Shown here one piece after another: positions 57,567 to 64,000 of a DNA stretch of 64,000 nucleotides. Position numbers and translations under genes: made by a program. Position 1 is the first letter of the stretch, and the number at the start of each line of letters is the position of its first letter. This DNA is from Thermaerobacter sp. PB12/4term (GTDB lineage Bacteria > Bacillota > Sulfobacillia > Thermaerobacterales > Thermaerobacteraceae): assembly GCF_003403315.2 (NCBI RefSeq), contig NZ_CP048407.1, positions 1,798,001 through 1,862,000 of the forward strand. The letters are read 5' to 3'. The notes beneath the pieces are model-generated. The model saw only the letters and a list, made by a program, of their open reading frames with translations. It had not been told where the DNA came from and did no database searches.

Positions 57567-57757
57567 GGGATCATCCCCCCAGCCATGTTTCCGGTGATGC
57601 TTTCGGCGATCCTTTCGGCGATGTCTTCGGCGCTCTTTTCGGGGCTGGTCCGCAGGACCGGCTTGTTATGCAGCGGTTTCCGGTTGTTCGTGCAGCCGCG
57701 CCCGTAGGTGTTTCTGTAACCGTTGCCGCAGTCATTGTCCACCTACCCTAATGTTTT

Positions 57758-57799
57758 CTGTCGACCTCCGAACTCCCCCAAACCCCTGGAGGTCGACAG
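57758..57799. promoter_or_regulatory. 12-bp perfect inverted repeat at the distal edge of the CRISPR leader
   Basis: CTGTCGACCTCC and GGAGGTCGACAG are perfect complements with an 18-base loop. TTTT precedes the left arm and TTTTT follows the right arm by about 11 bases. It may insulate the array as a terminator or serve as a protein site in the leader. Role unknown. Confidence 0.5.
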
Positions 57800-57944
57800 C
57801 AGGACCCACGTTTTTCCACCCCTTTGCCAGCAAGGCTTCGTCGCCTATTTGCATACATGAGGACCCAGTTGACCATTTTCTGGATCGACAGCACTGCCGT
57901 CGGTGAAGCCAAGAAGGACAAGGCTTCGGCGGGGCGAATAACGG
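57800..57944 (+). promoter_or_regulatory. CRISPR leader
   Basis: About 145 bp, AT-richer than its surroundings, next to the first repeat on the side expected from repeat polarity (native repeats end in GAAAC at the 3' side). A weak promoter pair, TTGCCA (57824-57829), 16 bases, TATTTG (57846-57851), could drive the precursor RNA. No coding frame is supported. Confidence 0.5.
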
Positions 57945-58247
57945 GTTTGTAGGGTACCTATGACTCGGGTTTGACATCGCGGCGCCACCCGCCAGGGAGA
58001 GGGGCGCTGTGTTTGTAGGGTACCTATGACTCGGGTTTGACCGGCCGCATCCGCTGGCAAAGCGGATCAAGGTCAGCAACAAGTTTGTAGGGTACCTATG
58101 ACTCGGGTTTGACTTGTGCACGCCCGCGACGATGTGCTCGCCCTCGTGGGTTTGTAGGGTACCTATGACTCGGGTTTGACGCGACCTGAACGACGGATGG
58201 CAGCGGGGCCTCCGATGTTTGTAGGGTACCTATGACTCGGGTTTGAC
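57945..58247 (+). CRISPR. Leader-side CRISPR segment with hybrid CRISPR/IS repeats, 5 repeats, 4 spacers
   Basis: Five identical 31-bp repeats at 57945-57975, 58011-58041, 58083-58113, 58150-58180 and 58217-58247, with spacers of 35, 41, 36 and 36 bp. Each repeat is GTTTGTAGGGTACCTATGA followed by CTCGGGTTTGAC. The first 19 bases are the native repeat's 5' part; the last 12 equal the left end of the insertion sequence that begins at 58236, inside the fifth repeat. After base 31 each copy diverges from the IS, so only these 12 bases were copied. Native repeats downstream end in GGGATCGAAAC instead. The last eight bases, which form the crRNA 5' handle, change from ATCGAAAC to GGTTTGAC. Confidence 0.95.
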
Positions 58248-58365
58248 CGTTGACGGCCCTGCTTGGTGCCACGCCGCCCCAGGAACCCGCATGAATCAAG
58301 GGGTTTCCATGGGGCGGCGGTTCTTTTGGGTCAAAAGTGTAGTGCCACGTGTATTCGGGAAACAC

Positions 58366-58394
58366 TTGTATGGTAAGCACGAACATGCTATGAT
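58366..58394 (+). promoter_or_regulatory. Transposase promoter, TTGTAT-17-TATGAT
   Basis: TTGTAT at 58366-58371 and TATGAT at 58389-58394 are 17 bases apart, close to consensus. The -10 element ends nine bases before the ATG at 58404, so the transcript would be nearly leaderless. Confidence 0.55.
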
Positions 58395-58403
58395 GGTTGT
58401 GCC

Positions 58404-60021
58404 ATGTTCATCCGCCAGAAGACCTTCAAGAACAAAGACGGCTCCACCCGCACCTACCTCCAGCTCGTCGAGAGCGTGCGCCAGGGCGGCCGCGTCCGCC
58501 AGCGGGTGGTCGCCACCCTGGGCCGGCTGGAGGATCTTCAGGACGGCCGCCTCGATGCCCCTCATCGAGAACCTGGCCCGCTTCTCCCAGAGCACCTGGC
58601 GTCGGCTCGAAGAACAGGCCGAACGTCTGAACGTCCGCTGGTCCAAGCAGTGGGGACCGGCCCTGATCTTCGAGCGCCTCTGGCAGGAGGCAGAGCTGGA
58701 CAAGGCCTTCGCCGCCCTGCTCGAAGACCGCCAGCTTGCCTTCGATGTCGCCGAGGCCGTCTTCACCATGGTGCTCAACCGCCTCACCGACCCCTGCTCC
58801 AAGCGCGGCCTGGTGCGCCAGTGGCTGCAGGGCGTCTACCGGCCCCAGGCAGAGCAGTTGGAACTGCACCACTACTACCGGGCCCTGGATGTGTTGGCCG
58901 AGCACAAGGAGGCGATCGAGGATCGCCTCTTCGCCCGGGCTCGCGACCTGTTCTGGACCGAGGTCGACGTGGTGATGTGGGACTGTACATCCAGCTACTT
59001 CGAAGGCCGAGGGCCGGAGGGGTTGGCTGCCTACGGCTATTCCCGCGACAAACGCCCGGACCGGCCCCAGCTGGTGGTGGGCGTGCTCATGACCCGGGAC
59101 GGCTACCCCATCGCCCACGAGGTCTTCCCGGGCGATACCGCCGACAAGGCGACCGTGGCGACCGTGCTGGATGCCCTCAAGCGGCGCTTTCACCTGCGCC
59201 GGGTGATCTTCGTGGCCGACCGGGGCATGGTCAGCCGTCCGATCCTGCGGGCCATCGAGGAGGCCGGGATGGAGTACATCGTCGGCATGCCCCTGCGTCG
59301 GCACCGGGCGGCCGAGGCGGTCTTGAGCCAGCCGGGACGGTATCGCAAGGTGAACAAACAACTCCAGATCAAGCAGGTGACCCACCAAGGCCAGCGCTAC
59401 ATCCTCTGCCACAACCCCCTGCAGGCCGAGCACGACCGCCAGGCCCGGGAGGCGGTGCTCGCGCACCTGAAGCAGCGGATCGAGCGCGGCCAAGCCAAGG
59501 ATCTCCTGCGGAACCGCCTCGTGGCCCGTTACCTCAAGGCCCTGCCCCAGGGCGCGTTGGTGGTGAACACCGACGCCGTCAAGCGAGCCACCCGCTACGA
59601 TGGGAAGTACCTGCTGCGCACCAACACCGACCTGGAACCGGAGGCGGTGGTCCGCGCCTACAAGGATCTCTGGCGGGTCGAGCGCGCCTTCCGCACCCTC
59701 AAGTCCGCCCTGGACTTGCGGCCGATGTTCCACTGGACGGAGCGGCGGGTCCGGGGGCACGTCATGGTCTGTTTCCTGGCGCTGGTGCTGGAGAGCCTGT
59801 TGTTGCGCAAGCTCCGCCAGCAAAACCCCGAGGCGAGCTACGAGGACGTGCTGAGCGACCTCGCCCAGCTCCATGCCGTGGCGGTGGAACTCGACGGCGA
59901 GACCTACCTCACCCGGACCGAGCTGGTGGGCCAAGCCTACGAAGCCTTCAAAGCCGTAGGTCTGCGGCCGCCGGCGCGGGTGCAGCCGATGCCACGTCCC
60001 GCCACGACCCCCGCCGGGTAG
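58404..60021 (+). pseudogene. IS1634-family transposase, frameshifted
   Basis: The frame starting at ATG 58404 (MFIRQKTFKNKDGSTRTYLQ) gives the family's N-terminus to residue 52 (QDGRLDA). It then needs a shift of one base at a CCCC run (58558-58561) to continue as LIENLARFSQSTWRRLEEQ through to the TAG at 60019-60021, about 538 residues in all. DDE residues are visible as VVMWDCTSSYF, FVADRGMVS and LWRVERAFRTLKSAL. One extra C explains the break. A +1 programmed shift or a sequencing error cannot be excluded, but a dead transposase is the simplest reading. Confidence 0.8.
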
Positions 60022-60101
60022 TGTAGTGGTACGCAGTCCCCGTGTGCCCAAGAAAGCCTTGTGTTTCAAGGGTTCTCAAGGATCACGGTGTCAAAGTCGA
60101 G

Positions 60102-60624
60102 TATGAGGGATCGAAACATCGGGCACTCGGGCCACGGCCAACGCTGGTGCGGTCGGTTTGTAGGGTACCTATGAGGGATCGAAACTACTGCGGCCACACT
60201 GGCCGTGTCAAGCTGGCTGTCGTTTGTAGGGTACCTATGAGGGATCGAAACGAAGGGATGGATGCCTCTCGTTCATGCGTGGTACGCGTTTGTAGGGTAC
60301 CTATGAGGGATCGAAACTGGCCCATGGGGCTGGTGGTGAAGATGCCCCAGCCCCGCGTTTGTAGGGTACCTATGAGGGATCGAAACAACGCCTCCGCATT
60401 GAGCGGGTCGAGGCCGTCCGAGCGTTTGTAGGGTACCTATGAGGGATCGAAACCGCAGGTCGATGAGCGTATCTCGCAGCGACTCATTCTGTTTGTAGGG
60501 TACCTATGAGGGATCGAAACCGGGAGTACGCGGAGTGGGCCGCCTTTTATGCGGCCGGTTTGTAGGGTACCTATGAGGGATCGAAACCCATCGCAGAGCG
60601 TCACCTCCCAATTGTCATCGCCGG
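60102..60624 (+). CRISPR. Older CRISPR segment with native 30-bp repeats, 7 full repeats plus one split repeat
   Basis: A 16-bp repeat remnant (60102-60117, TATGA plus GGGATCGAAAC) is the right half of the repeat split by the IS. Full repeats follow at 60156, 60222, 60288, 60357, 60424, 60491 and 60558, each 30 bp: GTTTGTAGGGTACCTATGA then GGGATCGAAAC. Spacers are 38, 36, 36, 39, 37, 37 and 37 bp, and one more spacer-length stretch (60588-60624, 37 bp) ends where the IS21-like element begins. The repeat resembles type I-B/III repeats ending in GAAAC, read left to right. No cas gene is in the window. Confidence 0.95.
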
Positions 60625-60722
60625 TGTTAAACTGACCCGGGATCGCCGGGTAAGAATTGACCCACCCCCCAGCAAAGACACCTTCCAAATCCAGCCACGG
60701 AGCGGGAGGTGTCCTCGGCAAC

Positions 60723-61964
60723 ATGCTGGGAGGTGGGAAGGTGAAACGCCTATACGAGCTTCATGGCGAGGGTCGGTCCATCCGGGAGATCGCACGAATC
60801 CTCGGGATCTCCCGGAACACGGTGCGGCGGTACTTGCGTGCCACCGAGGTGCCCAAGCCGGCCCCTCGGGCGGCCCGCGGCTCCAAGCTCGACCCCTACA
60901 AGGAGTTTATCCTGCAACGGGTGGCGGAGGGAGTGGAAAACTGCGTCGTCCTTCTTCGCGAGCTGCGGACCCAGGGTTACGAGGGGGGCTACACCATCCT
61001 CAAGGAGTTCGTCCGGCCCCTGCGTCGCCCCCGCTCCATGCCGGGCACCGTCCGGTTCGAGACGCAGCCGGGCCAGCAGACGCAAGTGGATTGGGGCAGC
61101 TGTGCCTATACGCTGCCGGACGGCACGGACCGGCGAAAGTGGGTCTTCGCGATGGTGCTCAGCTGGTCGCGGGCCCTGTACGTCGAGTTTGTCGACCGGG
61201 CCGACACCGCGACGTTCATCCGCTGCCATCTGAACGCGTTCCGGTACTTCGGCGGGGTACCGGAAACGTGCCTGTACGACCGGACCAAGCTGGTGGTGTT
61301 GGGGCTGGATGAGAACGGCGAGCCCAAGTGGAATGAACGCTTTCTGGACTTTGCCCTGCGGCTGGGTTTTGCCATCCGGCTCTGCCAGGGCTACCGCCCC
61401 CAGACCAAGGGCCGGGTGGAAAGCGGCATCAAGTACGTCAAGGGCAACTTCTGGCCCGCGGTTCGGTTCACGGATCTGGATGACCTGAACCGGCAGGCCC
61501 TGGCGTGGTGTGATACCGTGGCCAACGTCCGCATCCACGGCACCACCCATGAGCGGCCCGTGGACCGGTTGGCGATCGAACGAGGGGCCTTGCGGCCGTT
61601 GCCCCCGCAGGAGCGGCTTAGGCCGTGGCTGCGCGAGCAGCGGCAGGTGGGCCGGGACGGTTACGTACAGTGGGAACGGGCGTGGTACGGCCTGCCGTGG
61701 CCCTGGCGGCCCGGCCAGCTCGTCCAGGTCCAGCCGGGCGAGGGCGTGGTCGAGCTCTGGGTCGGTGACCAGCGGGTGGCGGTGCATCCCCGAGCCCTCC
61801 GGCCGGGCCAGCGCTTCACGCACCCGCAGCAGTGGGCGGGGTTGTCCGCGAAGCGTGGCCGTCCGCGGCCGGAGCCCCGGGCGGTGCAATGGCCCACGGT
61901 GGAAGTCGAGCGACGGTCTTTGAGCACCTACGAGGCTCTGGCCGAGGCGGTGAGTCGGCGATGA
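60723..61964 (+). CDS. istA: IS21 transposase IstA
   Basis: About 413 residues. An N-terminal helix-turn-helix (GRSIREIARILGISRNTVRRYLR) is followed by the DDE integrase core: QVDWGSCAYTL, LYDRTKLVVLG and the Glu in KGRVESGIKYVKGNFW. The ATG at 60723 follows GGGAGGTG by nine bases; a GTG at 60741 with GGGAGGTGGG is also possible. It cuts and joins DNA with the help of IstB. The frame is intact, so the protein could be active. Confidence 0.92.
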   Translation: MLGGGKVKRLYELHGEGRSIREIARILGISRNTVRRYLRATEVPKPAPRAARGSKLDPYKEFILQRVAEGVENCVVLLRELRTQGYEGGYTILKEFVRPLRRPRSMPGTVRFETQPGQQTQVDWGSCAYTLPDGTDRRKWVFAMVLSWSRALYVEFVDRADTATFIRCHLNAFRYFGGVPETCLYDRTKLVVLGLDENGEPKWNERFLDFALRLGFAIRLCQGYRPQTKGRVESGIKYVKGNFWPAVRFTDLDDLNRQALAWCDTVANVRIHGTTHERPVDRLAIERGALRPLPPQERLRPWLREQRQVGRDGYVQWERAWYGLPWPWRPGQLVQVQPGEGVVELWVGDQRVAVHPRALRPGQRFTHPQQWAGLSAKRGRPRPEPRAVQWPTVEVERRSLSTYEALAEAVSRR

Positions 61965-62761
61965 TCGCCCTGGAGAAGGCCCGGCAGTACCTGGAGCAGC
62001 TGGGCTTGAGCCACGCGGCGGCGGTTCTCGAAAGCCGCCTGGAGGCCGCCGCCCAGAAGCAGCTCCCCTACCCCGACTTCCTCGTGGACCTGCTGGGCCT
62101 CGAGGCGGCGGCGCGCCGGGAGCGCTACCTGCGGACACGGACACGACTGGCGCATTTGCCCTTTCACCGCACCCTGGAGCAGTTCGACTTCGGGTTCCAG
62201 CCGTCCGTCGACGAGCGCCAGATTCGCGAGCTGGCTACCCTCGCCTTCGTCGCCGACGCCGCCAATGTGATCTTCCTCGGACCACCAGGCGTGGGCAAAA
62301 CCCACCTGAGTGTGGCTCTCGGGATCAAGGCGATCGAGGCCGGTTACGGAGTGTACTTCGTGCGGGCTCACGAGCTGCTCGAAGACCTGCGCCGCGCCCA
62401 AGCCGAGCACCGACTCGACCGACGCATGCGAGTCTACTTGGCCCCCAAGGTGCTGATCATCGACGAATTCGGGGTCTGGCCCTACGACCGGGCTGCGGCG
62501 ACCGCCCTGTTCGCCCTGATCTCGGCCCGTTATGAACGGGGCAGCATCATCTTGACCAGTAACAAGGGCTTTGCGGAGTGGGGCGAAGTGTTGGGCGATT
62601 CGGTGATCGCCACCGCCATCCTCGACCGGTTGCTTCACCACAGCCACGTCATCAACATCCGGGGCGAGAGCTACCGGCTTCGGGAGAAGAAGCGGGCGGG
62701 ACTGTTCGGCGGAACCCCACCCCGAAGGGAGGTGATGCCACAGGACGGCTCTGCGGAGTAA
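61961..62761 (+). CDS. istB: IS21 helper ATPase IstB
   Basis: 266 residues. AAA+/DnaC-like ATPase with Walker A FLGPPGVGKTHLS, Walker B VLIIDEFGVWPYD, and sensor ILTSNKGFAEWGEVLGD. It picks the target site and activates IstA. The ATG overlaps the istA stop (ATGA), the usual coupling in this family. The C-terminal YRLREKKRAGLF is typical. Intact. Confidence 0.94.
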   Translation: MIALEKARQYLEQLGLSHAAAVLESRLEAAAQKQLPYPDFLVDLLGLEAAARRERYLRTRTRLAHLPFHRTLEQFDFGFQPSVDERQIRELATLAFVADAANVIFLGPPGVGKTHLSVALGIKAIEAGYGVYFVRAHELLEDLRRAQAEHRLDRRMRVYLAPKVLIIDEFGVWPYDRAAATALFALISARYERGSIILTSNKGFAEWGEVLGDSVIATAILDRLLHHSHVINIRGESYRLREKKRAGLFGGTPPRREVMPQDGSAE

Positions 62762-62864
62762 GTGACCCGAAGGGGTGGGATTTCCTAAGCGCTTGTCAAG
62801 GTGCAGACGGCGCGAACTGTGGTAGCTTTAAAGTTGGGGGCACCCCTACGGGGAGCTGGGTGGC

Positions 62865-63140
62865 TCAGCCGACCCGAACGTTATCCCCCGGGTGCCCTTC
62901 ACGATTGCGGCGGGCGCGCCGCACGGAGTCGGGAACGGTGTACGCCTGTGCCAGGCGCCGAGCCGTTTCCCGGTCCACGGGCGTGCCGTGTGCATCGCGC
63001 AGGACGTACAGCCTTCCGTCCCTTCGCACGGCATACAGCCGGTCGGCAAGGTGCACCGCCACGACGCACACGGCCTGCGTGTGGTGGTGGCCCTTCTCGA
63101 CGAGGCAGCGGCAATAGAGCCGGGCGAGTTCGGGTGAAGT
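62865..63140 (-). pseudogene. C-terminal remnant of an IS110-family transposase
   Basis: About 90 residues in frame: PELARLYCRCLVEKGHHHTQAVCVV, LADRLYAVRRDGRLYVL, then a basic tail. This is the C-terminal end of IS110/IS116/IS902-type transposases (the LARxY-x8-KGxxHxQAxCAV pattern). Everything upstream is missing because the partial IS3 element begins at 63135-63141. The gap to istB (62762-62864) shows no gene. Confidence 0.7.
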
Positions 63141-64000
63141 TGACCCGGTTTCGTGGACAGGTTGAGGCTTACGCGACAACCCCTTCCTGTGGCTGAGCCT
63201 TTCGCTCCTGGATCCAACGCTCCTCGTACTCGTAGGGCGAGAGGTAACCAAGTGCCGAGTGACGCCGCCGCCGGTTGTAGAACCCTTCGACGTACTCGAA
63301 GATCGCCATGCGCAGTTGATCCCGTGTGGCCCAGGCTTGGCGGTCGAGGAGCTCCCGTTGCAGGGTCGCGTAGAAACTCTCCGCCATCGCGTTGTCCAGC
63401 GCATCGCCCACGGAACCCATTGATCCGGCGATGCCCAGGACCTCCAAGCGGCGGGTGAATGCCAGCGAGGTGTATTGCACGCCATGGTCCGAGTGGTGGA
63501 TCAGACCGGGCCCCGGCCGGCGACGCCGTACCGCCATGGTGACGGCGTCGACCACCAACTCCGCCACGGGCCGGTCCCCCATGGCCCAGCCCACCACGGC
63601 GCGGGAGAAGGCATCCACCACCGTGGCCAGGTACAGCCAGCCTTCCTCCGTGCGATGCTGCGTGAGGTCCGCCACCCACACCCGGTTGGGGGCATCGGGC
63701 ACAAACTGCCGACCCAGCCGATCAGGGTAGACGGGGCGGCGGGGATCCCGGAGTGTGATCCCCCGGGTCCGGCGCCGGTGCACGCCGGCCAGCCCCATAG
63801 CCCGCATCAGCCGGGCGACCCGCTTCCGACCACAGCGGACCCCATGCGTCAACCGCAGCTCTGCATGGATGCGGGGCGCGCCATACGTGCCCCGGCTGCC
63901 AGCATGGATGAGCCGGATCCGCTGGCTCAAATCCGCGTCCTCCTGGGACCGTCTGGAGGCACCCCGTTGCCGCCATGCGTAATAGCCACTCGTCGAGACG
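63135..64000 (-). mobile_element. IS3-family element, cut by the window edge
   Basis: The low-coordinate end carries TGACCCGGTTTCGTGGACA (63141-63159), of the TGA..GTGGACA type seen at IS3 ends; TGAAGT at 63135 is an alternative outer end. The transposase gene on the minus strand runs out of the window, so orfA and the other end are not visible. The element truncates the IS110 remnant. Confidence 0.75.
63169..64000 (-). CDS. IS3-family transposase OrfB, N-terminus outside window
   Basis: At least 276 residues, open to the right edge. The N-terminal region reads VSTSGYYAWRQRGAS, then YGAPRIHAELR and a helix-turn-helix-like RKRVARLMRAMGL. The integrase core has WVADLTQHRTEEGWLYLATVVDAF (Asp), IHHSDHGVQYTS (Asp) and DNAMAESFYATLQREL (Glu). 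It ends at TAA 63169-63171. An internal TTG at 63930 is probably not the true start, because the family homology continues upstream without a break to the window edge. Confidence 0.9.
   Translation of the reverse strand, partial: VSTSGYYAWRQRGASRRSQEDADLSQRIRLIHAGSRGTYGAPRIHAELRLTHGVRCGRKRVARLMRAMGLAGVHRRRTRGITLRDPRRPVYPDRLGRQFVPDAPNRVWVADLTQHRTEEGWLYLATVVDAFSRAVVGWAMGDRPVAELVVDAVTMAVRRRRPGPGLIHHSDHGVQYTSLAFTRRLEVLGIAGSMGSVGDALDNAMAESFYATLQRELLDRQAWATRDQLRMAIFEYVEGFYNRRRRHSALGYLSPYEYEERWIQERKAQPQEGVVA

Follow-up and report, generated by a model that had tools for sequence, protein, structure and literature searches.

Leader-side CRISPR repeats that carry an insertion-sequence end in Thermaerobacter sp. 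PB12/4term and their probable copying by adaptation

How can five consecutive repeats of a CRISPR array bear the end of an insertion sequence (IS) that touches only one of them? The question is raised by array 1 of Thermaerobacter sp. PB12/4term, located in the window (the whole stretch of 64,000 nucleotides analysed) with its leader at the left and an IS21-family element at the right (Table 1). The native repeat of this array, GTTTGTAGGGTACCTATGAGGGATCGAAAC, is 30 bp long, and one such repeat is split by an IS with a TATGA duplication, as an earlier, sequence-only reading had proposed. On the leader side of the element the repeat is GTTTGTAGGGTACCTATGACTCGGGTTTGAC, a 31-bp unit present in five exact copies, each of which retains 19 bp of native repeat, GTTTGTAGGGTACCTATGA. 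In the copy that touches the IS, the joining of these 19 bp to the IS end is seen directly: this is the original junction. The other four, as the same reading held, contain no IS sequence past the shared 12 bp; each is followed by a different spacer. Its formula of 19 plus 12 bp describes all five copies, save that the final C, position 31, may in some of them be spacer and not repeat. Chance is no candidate for the origin of these hybrid repeats, because five identical 31-mers follow one another at a spacing of 66–72 bp, and their last 12 bp are the IS end that the genome has at three further sites. Both repeat types retain a weak stem within their first 20 nt; a claim based on folding was dropped, as the stems are no better than those of shuffled sequences (z of −0.46 for the native and 0.62 for the hybrid repeat).

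Table 1. Features of array 1 and its surroundings, in window coordinates.
Feature	Position	Strand	Remark
Array-1 leader, last 200 bp	57745..57944	+	195/200 identical to leader of orthologous array in G001
Hybrid repeat 1, leader-most	57945..57975	+	native 19 bp + IS end 11–12 bp; exact copy
Spacer S1, 35 bp	57976..58010	+	no protospacer found
Hybrid repeat 2	58011..58041	+	exact copy
Spacer S2, 41 bp	58042..58082	+	candidate source: phage terminase gene
Hybrid repeat 3	58083..58113	+	exact copy
Spacer S3, 36 bp	58114..58149	+	resembles phage gene family, motif F-x-x-H-A-R
Hybrid repeat 4	58150..58180	+	exact copy
Spacer S4, 36 bp	58181..58216	+	by polarity the earliest post-IS acquisition; phage-like match 35/37
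Junction repeat	58217..58247	+	native 58217-58235, TATGA at 58231-58235, then IS bases 1–12
IS1634-family insertion sequence, 1866 bp	58236..60101	+	ends CTCGGGTTTGAC / GTCAAAGTCGAG, TATGA either side
IS transposase gene, frameshifted	58404..60021	+	extra C at IS position 323, absent from the other three full copies
Right half of split native repeat, TATGAGGGATCGAAAC	60102..60117	+	second TATGA at 60102-60106
Older part of array 1	60156..60587	+	seven native repeats of 30 bp with six intervening spacers
IS21-family element at trailing end of array 1	60625..62761	+	left end assigned by eye, right boundary set at ORF end
IS3-family element	63138..64000	-	runs past the window to about 64431

The element belongs to the IS1634 family: its transposase (P0002) matches NF033559 transpos_IS1634 with E 6.8e-123 and 411.2 bits (cut-off 100), and the family features, terminal inverted repeats and a short target duplication, are found in all four full copies harboured by the genome, a single contig of 2.82 Mb. 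Each of these copies starts with CTCGGGTTTGAC and ends with GTCAAAGTCGAG, and their 5-bp duplications are TATGA, TATGA, TCATG and TCTGA. They differ from one another by short indels only, and an intact 538-aa transposase frame is present solely in copy 2 (L039:2660-4524, genome 2554659-2556523). The same CTCGGGTTTGAC, with IS sequence continuing after it, opens three copies in G003 and one in Rubrobacter taiwanensis, the latter with the duplication ATAGA; the IS copies inspected in G002 and G003 display no clear target duplication. The expectation that other copies would begin in this way thus holds for every full copy in the genome. Variants do occur: a degenerate partial copy of 283 bp in the same genome begins CTCGGGTGTTCC, and two G002 copies begin CTCGGGTTTAAC and CTCCGGTTTGAC, all three with at least one change in the 12 bp. 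In G003 (L108, L109) the flanks of two IS copies form an inverted-repeat pair, as if the element had entered a hairpin.

The order of events is that the IS came first and the hybrid repeats later. Repeat variants do occur, as arrays 1 and 2 of this genome differ at positions 12 and 22, and the hybrid could in principle be an older, independent variant beside which the IS inserted, or with which it recombined afterwards. This is exceedingly improbable: the 12 bp coincide base for base with the IS end, as found in each of the four full copies here and in another genus, the IS-free ortholog described below has no hybrid repeat, and the exact 18-base hybrid junction occurs, among 101 genomes, only in the present one (G000), at six places. 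When two mismatches are allowed, one match each appears in eight other genomes, and two of these (G002 and G003, same genus) are IS ends outside arrays. The indels that distinguish the full copies resemble homopolymer errors, so that base-level errors may exist; an assembly artefact as the source of the hybrid repeats nevertheless has next to no probability in a single-contig genome where the same 12 bp recur five times between unique spacers, one of them with an independent phage match.

A sister species, G001, carries the orthologous array without the IS, with a flank of about 3 kb at 93% identity. Its 19 repeats comprise 16 that are exactly native, two with one change and a degenerate one at the distal end; none is a hybrid, and the leader-most five are exactly native. 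The comparison with an IS-free relative, envisaged in the sequence-only reading, therefore yields an array devoid of the 31-bp repeat. A further array of the same genome, array 2, serves as an internal control, albeit one consisting of a single array. Its repeat, GTTTGTAGGGTGCCTATGAGGAATCGAAAC, departs from that of array 1 at the two positions mentioned, and the sequence upstream of it agrees with the array-1 leader at 125 of 174 aligned bases. The IS of array 2 (copy 2) occupies the same base in the same orientation as the one in array 1, but in an interior repeat. As each IS is flanked by the bases of its own array at positions 12 and 22, the two insertions are most simply independent. Array 2 has no hybrid repeats: all 14 repeats between its leader and the IS are exactly native, so that this other array has kept its native repeat. 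In the two cases, hybrid repeats are found only where the IS end sits in the repeat being copied. In a 14-mer comparison of array 1, array 2 and the G001 array, no two of them share a spacer. Array 2 also holds an IS21-like element (L039:6969 to about 10590, read by eye, with a CCTA duplication), inserted in one of its repeats within a few bases of the position used by the IS1634-family element.

These arrays also bear on whether recombination or gene conversion, and not adaptation, spread the hybrid sequence over native repeats already present on the leader side. The 19 bp common to the repeats make such an exchange conceivable, yet it would call for four identical tracts, all ending at the same base and leaving the spacers untouched, and nothing of the kind has happened in array 2, where 14 native repeats precede the IS. 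Conversion is accordingly a very unlikely origin of the four copies; acquisition of new spacers is the preferred one.

Acquisition is documented best by S4. Together with the base before it (58180), this spacer agrees at 35 of 37 positions with the phage-like record IMGVR_UViG_2728369702_000001 (G101), which encodes a terminase, portal, protease and major head protein (PHROGs), and the match is flanked by TTG. Among the native spacers of array 2, five agree with this record at 86% or more (36/36, 35/35, 35/36, 35/37 and 31/36), and every one of the five has TG directly 5′ (CTG, CTG, TTG, CTG and ATG). Judged from these matches to a tailed-phage-like record (L149, L153, L154), the PAM of the system would be 5′-NTG. 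The spacers compared with G101 were the four of the hybrid array and 86 native ones (65 from array 2, 7 from array 1 and 14 from G001, the spacer after the split repeat being counted); a control with one shuffle per spacer, over 90 spacers, reached a maximum identity of 0.667. Six further spacers with identities of 0.68–0.75 (A2_20, A2_9, A2_46, A2_61, G001_5 and A1_3), none of which has TG directly 5′, were taken as chance and left out of the PAM count. Because S4 matches the phage record at 35/37 beside the same TG PAM as five native spacers, adaptation into the hybrid array is regarded as real. The history put forward in the sequence-only reading, IS insertion followed by the acquisition of four spacers, is supported by the IS-free ortholog, the array-2 control and this phage match.

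The four hybrid-array spacers are unique, and a clear protospacer is absent for three of them. Native spacers of arrays 1 and 2 measure 35–39 bp (n = 71), and S2 is longer than each of these. S2 has a 15-nt exact match inside the G101 terminase gene (E 0.013 for that record) and its translation is similar by eye to the G101 terminase, which may be its source. S3 with base 58113 matches a CRISPR spacer in G003 at 29 of 37 positions, a sequence in G048 at 28 and a G004 gene at 27. When S1–S4 were joined and compared with 61 genomes, the own array set aside, the best among the matches listed were weak ones to S3 (E 2.4e-4 in G048, 7.0e-4 in G003 and 2.1e-3 in G004); against phage records the joined spacers gave 13 rows only, all with E of at least 0.1. 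Searches of viral_contigs with two seeds per spacer yielded no protospacer for S1 or S2; of the two seeds for S3, one was without a match and the other led to a 26/37 match judged to be chance.

How long is the copied unit? A length of 30–31 bp is indicated, with observations in favour of either figure, and the earlier claim that about 31 bp were copied from the leader edge is amended to this range. The base after position 30 of each of the four new repeats is C, which opens 31 of 87 native spacers (a count including two fused G001 entries); since four such bases would be met by chance at about 0.016, a 31-bp copy is favoured. S3 points the same way. It reads x-V-H-A-R-D-D-V of a phage gene family, where x is A, I or V, and the residue before x is F in six of six family sequences (L219-L224, G004 query included), drawn from both genome matches and four of the seven phage records. 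As this F makes a TG PAM fit only a 31-bp copy, S3 favours that length, provided that it does belong to this gene family. S4 favours 30 bp, because its TG PAM is adjacent only if the C is part of the protospacer. One fixed length thus needs an added chance event, the S4 PAM fitting 30 bp and the common C and likely S3 source fitting 31. A possible course, a first copy of 30 bp with later copies of 31 bp, fits all the observations. The hybrid top strand has A at 30 and C at 31, the bottom strand T and G respectively. A preference for guanine on the bottom strand would explain the one-base-longer repeat; the S4 PAM argues otherwise for its own copy.

The account that emerges, an IS insertion followed by four acquisitions that copied the hybrid repeat by means of an upstream ruler, is in our judgement very probably correct. 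The IS1634-family element inserted into an array lying beside a type I-B operon; the repeat it entered would have been leader-proximal already or have become so afterwards. A Cas1-Cas2 integrase would then have acquired four spacers in succession: the spacers are unique and of about normal size, and one has a phage protospacer beside a PAM, from which the four acquisitions are inferred. Each time, the first cut would fall at the intact leader-repeat border and the second 30–31 bp away, at a distance set by a ruler whose anchor is the leader end together with repeat bases 1–19. Whatever DNA lay within the measured distance, IS bases included, would be copied as the new repeat, and the exact base was likely tuned by a bottom-strand guanine preference, giving a repeat that ends in C.

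Length measurement is suggested by the repeats themselves. Native and hybrid repeats have positions 1–19 in common and share none of the 11 bases at positions 20–30; since the copied unit kept its length all the same, ruler-like measurement in vivo is indicated. Four copies of near-constant length are what an upstream-anchored ruler would predict, and on sequence evidence the pattern is that of ruler-type duplication, with the second cut at a fixed distance despite a changed 3′ end (30–31 bp against 30 bp). Could the integrase instead have read the IS end itself, as a chance mimic of the native 3′ repeat end, with no measurement of length? Both repeats end in AC and, when aligned at their ends, they agree at three of 12 bases (the C, the A and a G at −9). 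That agreement is at chance level, alignment from the start gives 0/11, and ruler systems, in the passages of PMC6895254 that concern them, accept changes downstream of the ruler element. Mimicry is therefore improbable, if less so than the other alternatives, and measurement by an upstream ruler is the better explanation. The asserted independence from the 3′ repeat sequence accordingly holds for positions 20–30 and is qualified by the AC at both ends.

What enzyme wrote this record? Effector genes of type I-B lie within 10 kb of the far end of array 1 (PADLOC; E values of 4.3e-220 for Cas8b, 8.2e-55 for Cas7b, 2e-25 for Cas5b and 6.3e-58 for Cas6b). The IS21 and IS3 elements sit between the array and a truncated cas3 (window 60625-64000; L103 6138-8255), and beyond the IS3 element stand this cas3, cas5b, cas7b, cas8b and cas6b (L103 7386-13501). 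The cas3 remnant is the 289-aa HD part, cut beside the IS3 element; a complete cas3 was not found, as the five weak cas3_core matches genome-wide include none over the cut-off. Cas1 gives a single match genome-wide, of 18.8 bits, below the cut-off of 22.3, and Cas2 gives none, the same model having matches in seven of 14 control genomes. With Cas1 and the Cas3 helicase below their cut-offs genome-wide and Cas2 without a match, the array is probably frozen today. An adaptation module must nonetheless have been present or supplied at the time of spacer acquisition. We infer that cas1, cas2 and the helicase part of cas3 once stood at the locus and were then lost, leaving a gap flanked by the IS3 and IS21 elements. 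The writer of the record may have been the lost I-B module or an I-C module acting on both arrays.

Relatives show other arrangements. In G002 the same I-B operon has a long cas3, and no Cas1 match is found in that genome. In G001 the same locus encodes a Cas6 like that of the present genome, followed by an I-C operon (cas3, cas5, cas8, cas7, cas4 and cas1) in place of the I-B effector (L104, L115); besides the array-1 ortholog, this species has a separate array with repeats of about 36 bp. Adjoining array 2 is a 310-aa protein (L040:10685-11614) with weak, partial likeness to Cas1 and to DUF2325. As an integrase it was rejected, the likeness being below threshold, partial and shared weakly with DUF2325.

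Of the four full IS copies, two have entered CRISPR repeats, both at the same base. TATGA is rare in this GC-rich genome, with seven occurrences on the two strands of 61 kb of window sequence outside the array, which scale up to roughly 320 genome-wide against about 80 repeats; on this scaling, around one-fifth of the genomic TATGA sites may lie in CRISPR repeats. A special targeting of CRISPR repeats by the IS was rejected, since with so rare a motif a simple motif preference may suffice. Given that TATGA occurs in every repeat and that the IS twice independently entered the same repeat base, once in each array, a tentative wider proposition can be drawn, which is possible and on balance doubtful: transposon ends could be a natural source of new CRISPR repeats, in that an IS preferring a repeat motif rewrites the leader-proximal repeat and adaptation builds a new type from it behind the existing leader. 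If so, repeat families sharing the leader and 5′ half and differing in the 3′ half could arise in this way, and arrays with rewritten repeats might become separate in crRNA processing.

In adaptation the leader-proximal repeat serves as the template for each new repeat, and any change in it is passed on. Compared with such ordinary copying, the change here amounts to a third of the repeat and derives from a transposon end. An IS within a repeat or spacer of an array has been described in Xanthomonas citri (PMC6889575), in E. coli ATCC 8739 (PMC2886076) and in a review of the Sulfolobales (PMC4390879), and the relevant passages of these sources make no mention of a later acquisition that copied an IS-containing repeat. 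Nor, in searches of open-access papers, the primary I-B and I-E ruler papers not among them, was any report found of an IS end that joined a repeat and was propagated by adaptation. Ruler-type duplication and the landing of an IS in an array were both known before; the propagated IS-made repeat is, as far as that literature goes, new. Molecular rulers are cited in PMC6895254 for type I-E (Goren 2016) and for type I-B of Haloarcula hispanica (Wang 2016), and that paper (Kim 2019) reports a ruler in type II-A with guanine preferred at the bottom-strand attack site; in such systems second-site integration is set by the distance from upstream elements and changes at the downstream end are tolerated. 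In array 1 at least 11 bp separate the end of the retained native stretch from the cut, against the 8–10 bp given in PMC6895254. The present locus offers a natural experiment on length measurement in repeat copying, for which G001 provides the IS-free ortholog and array 2 the control within the genome, and a concrete route for an abrupt change of CRISPR repeat sequence. It narrows the possible ruler site in this system to the leader plus repeat bases 1–19, and indicates that adaptation in vivo still copies the right length at the right place when foreign DNA has taken over about one-third of the repeat. Whereas published rulers, as presented in the sources cited, were probed with small engineered changes, here all 11 bases at positions 20–30 were replaced naturally by mobile-element DNA, and four acquisitions followed.
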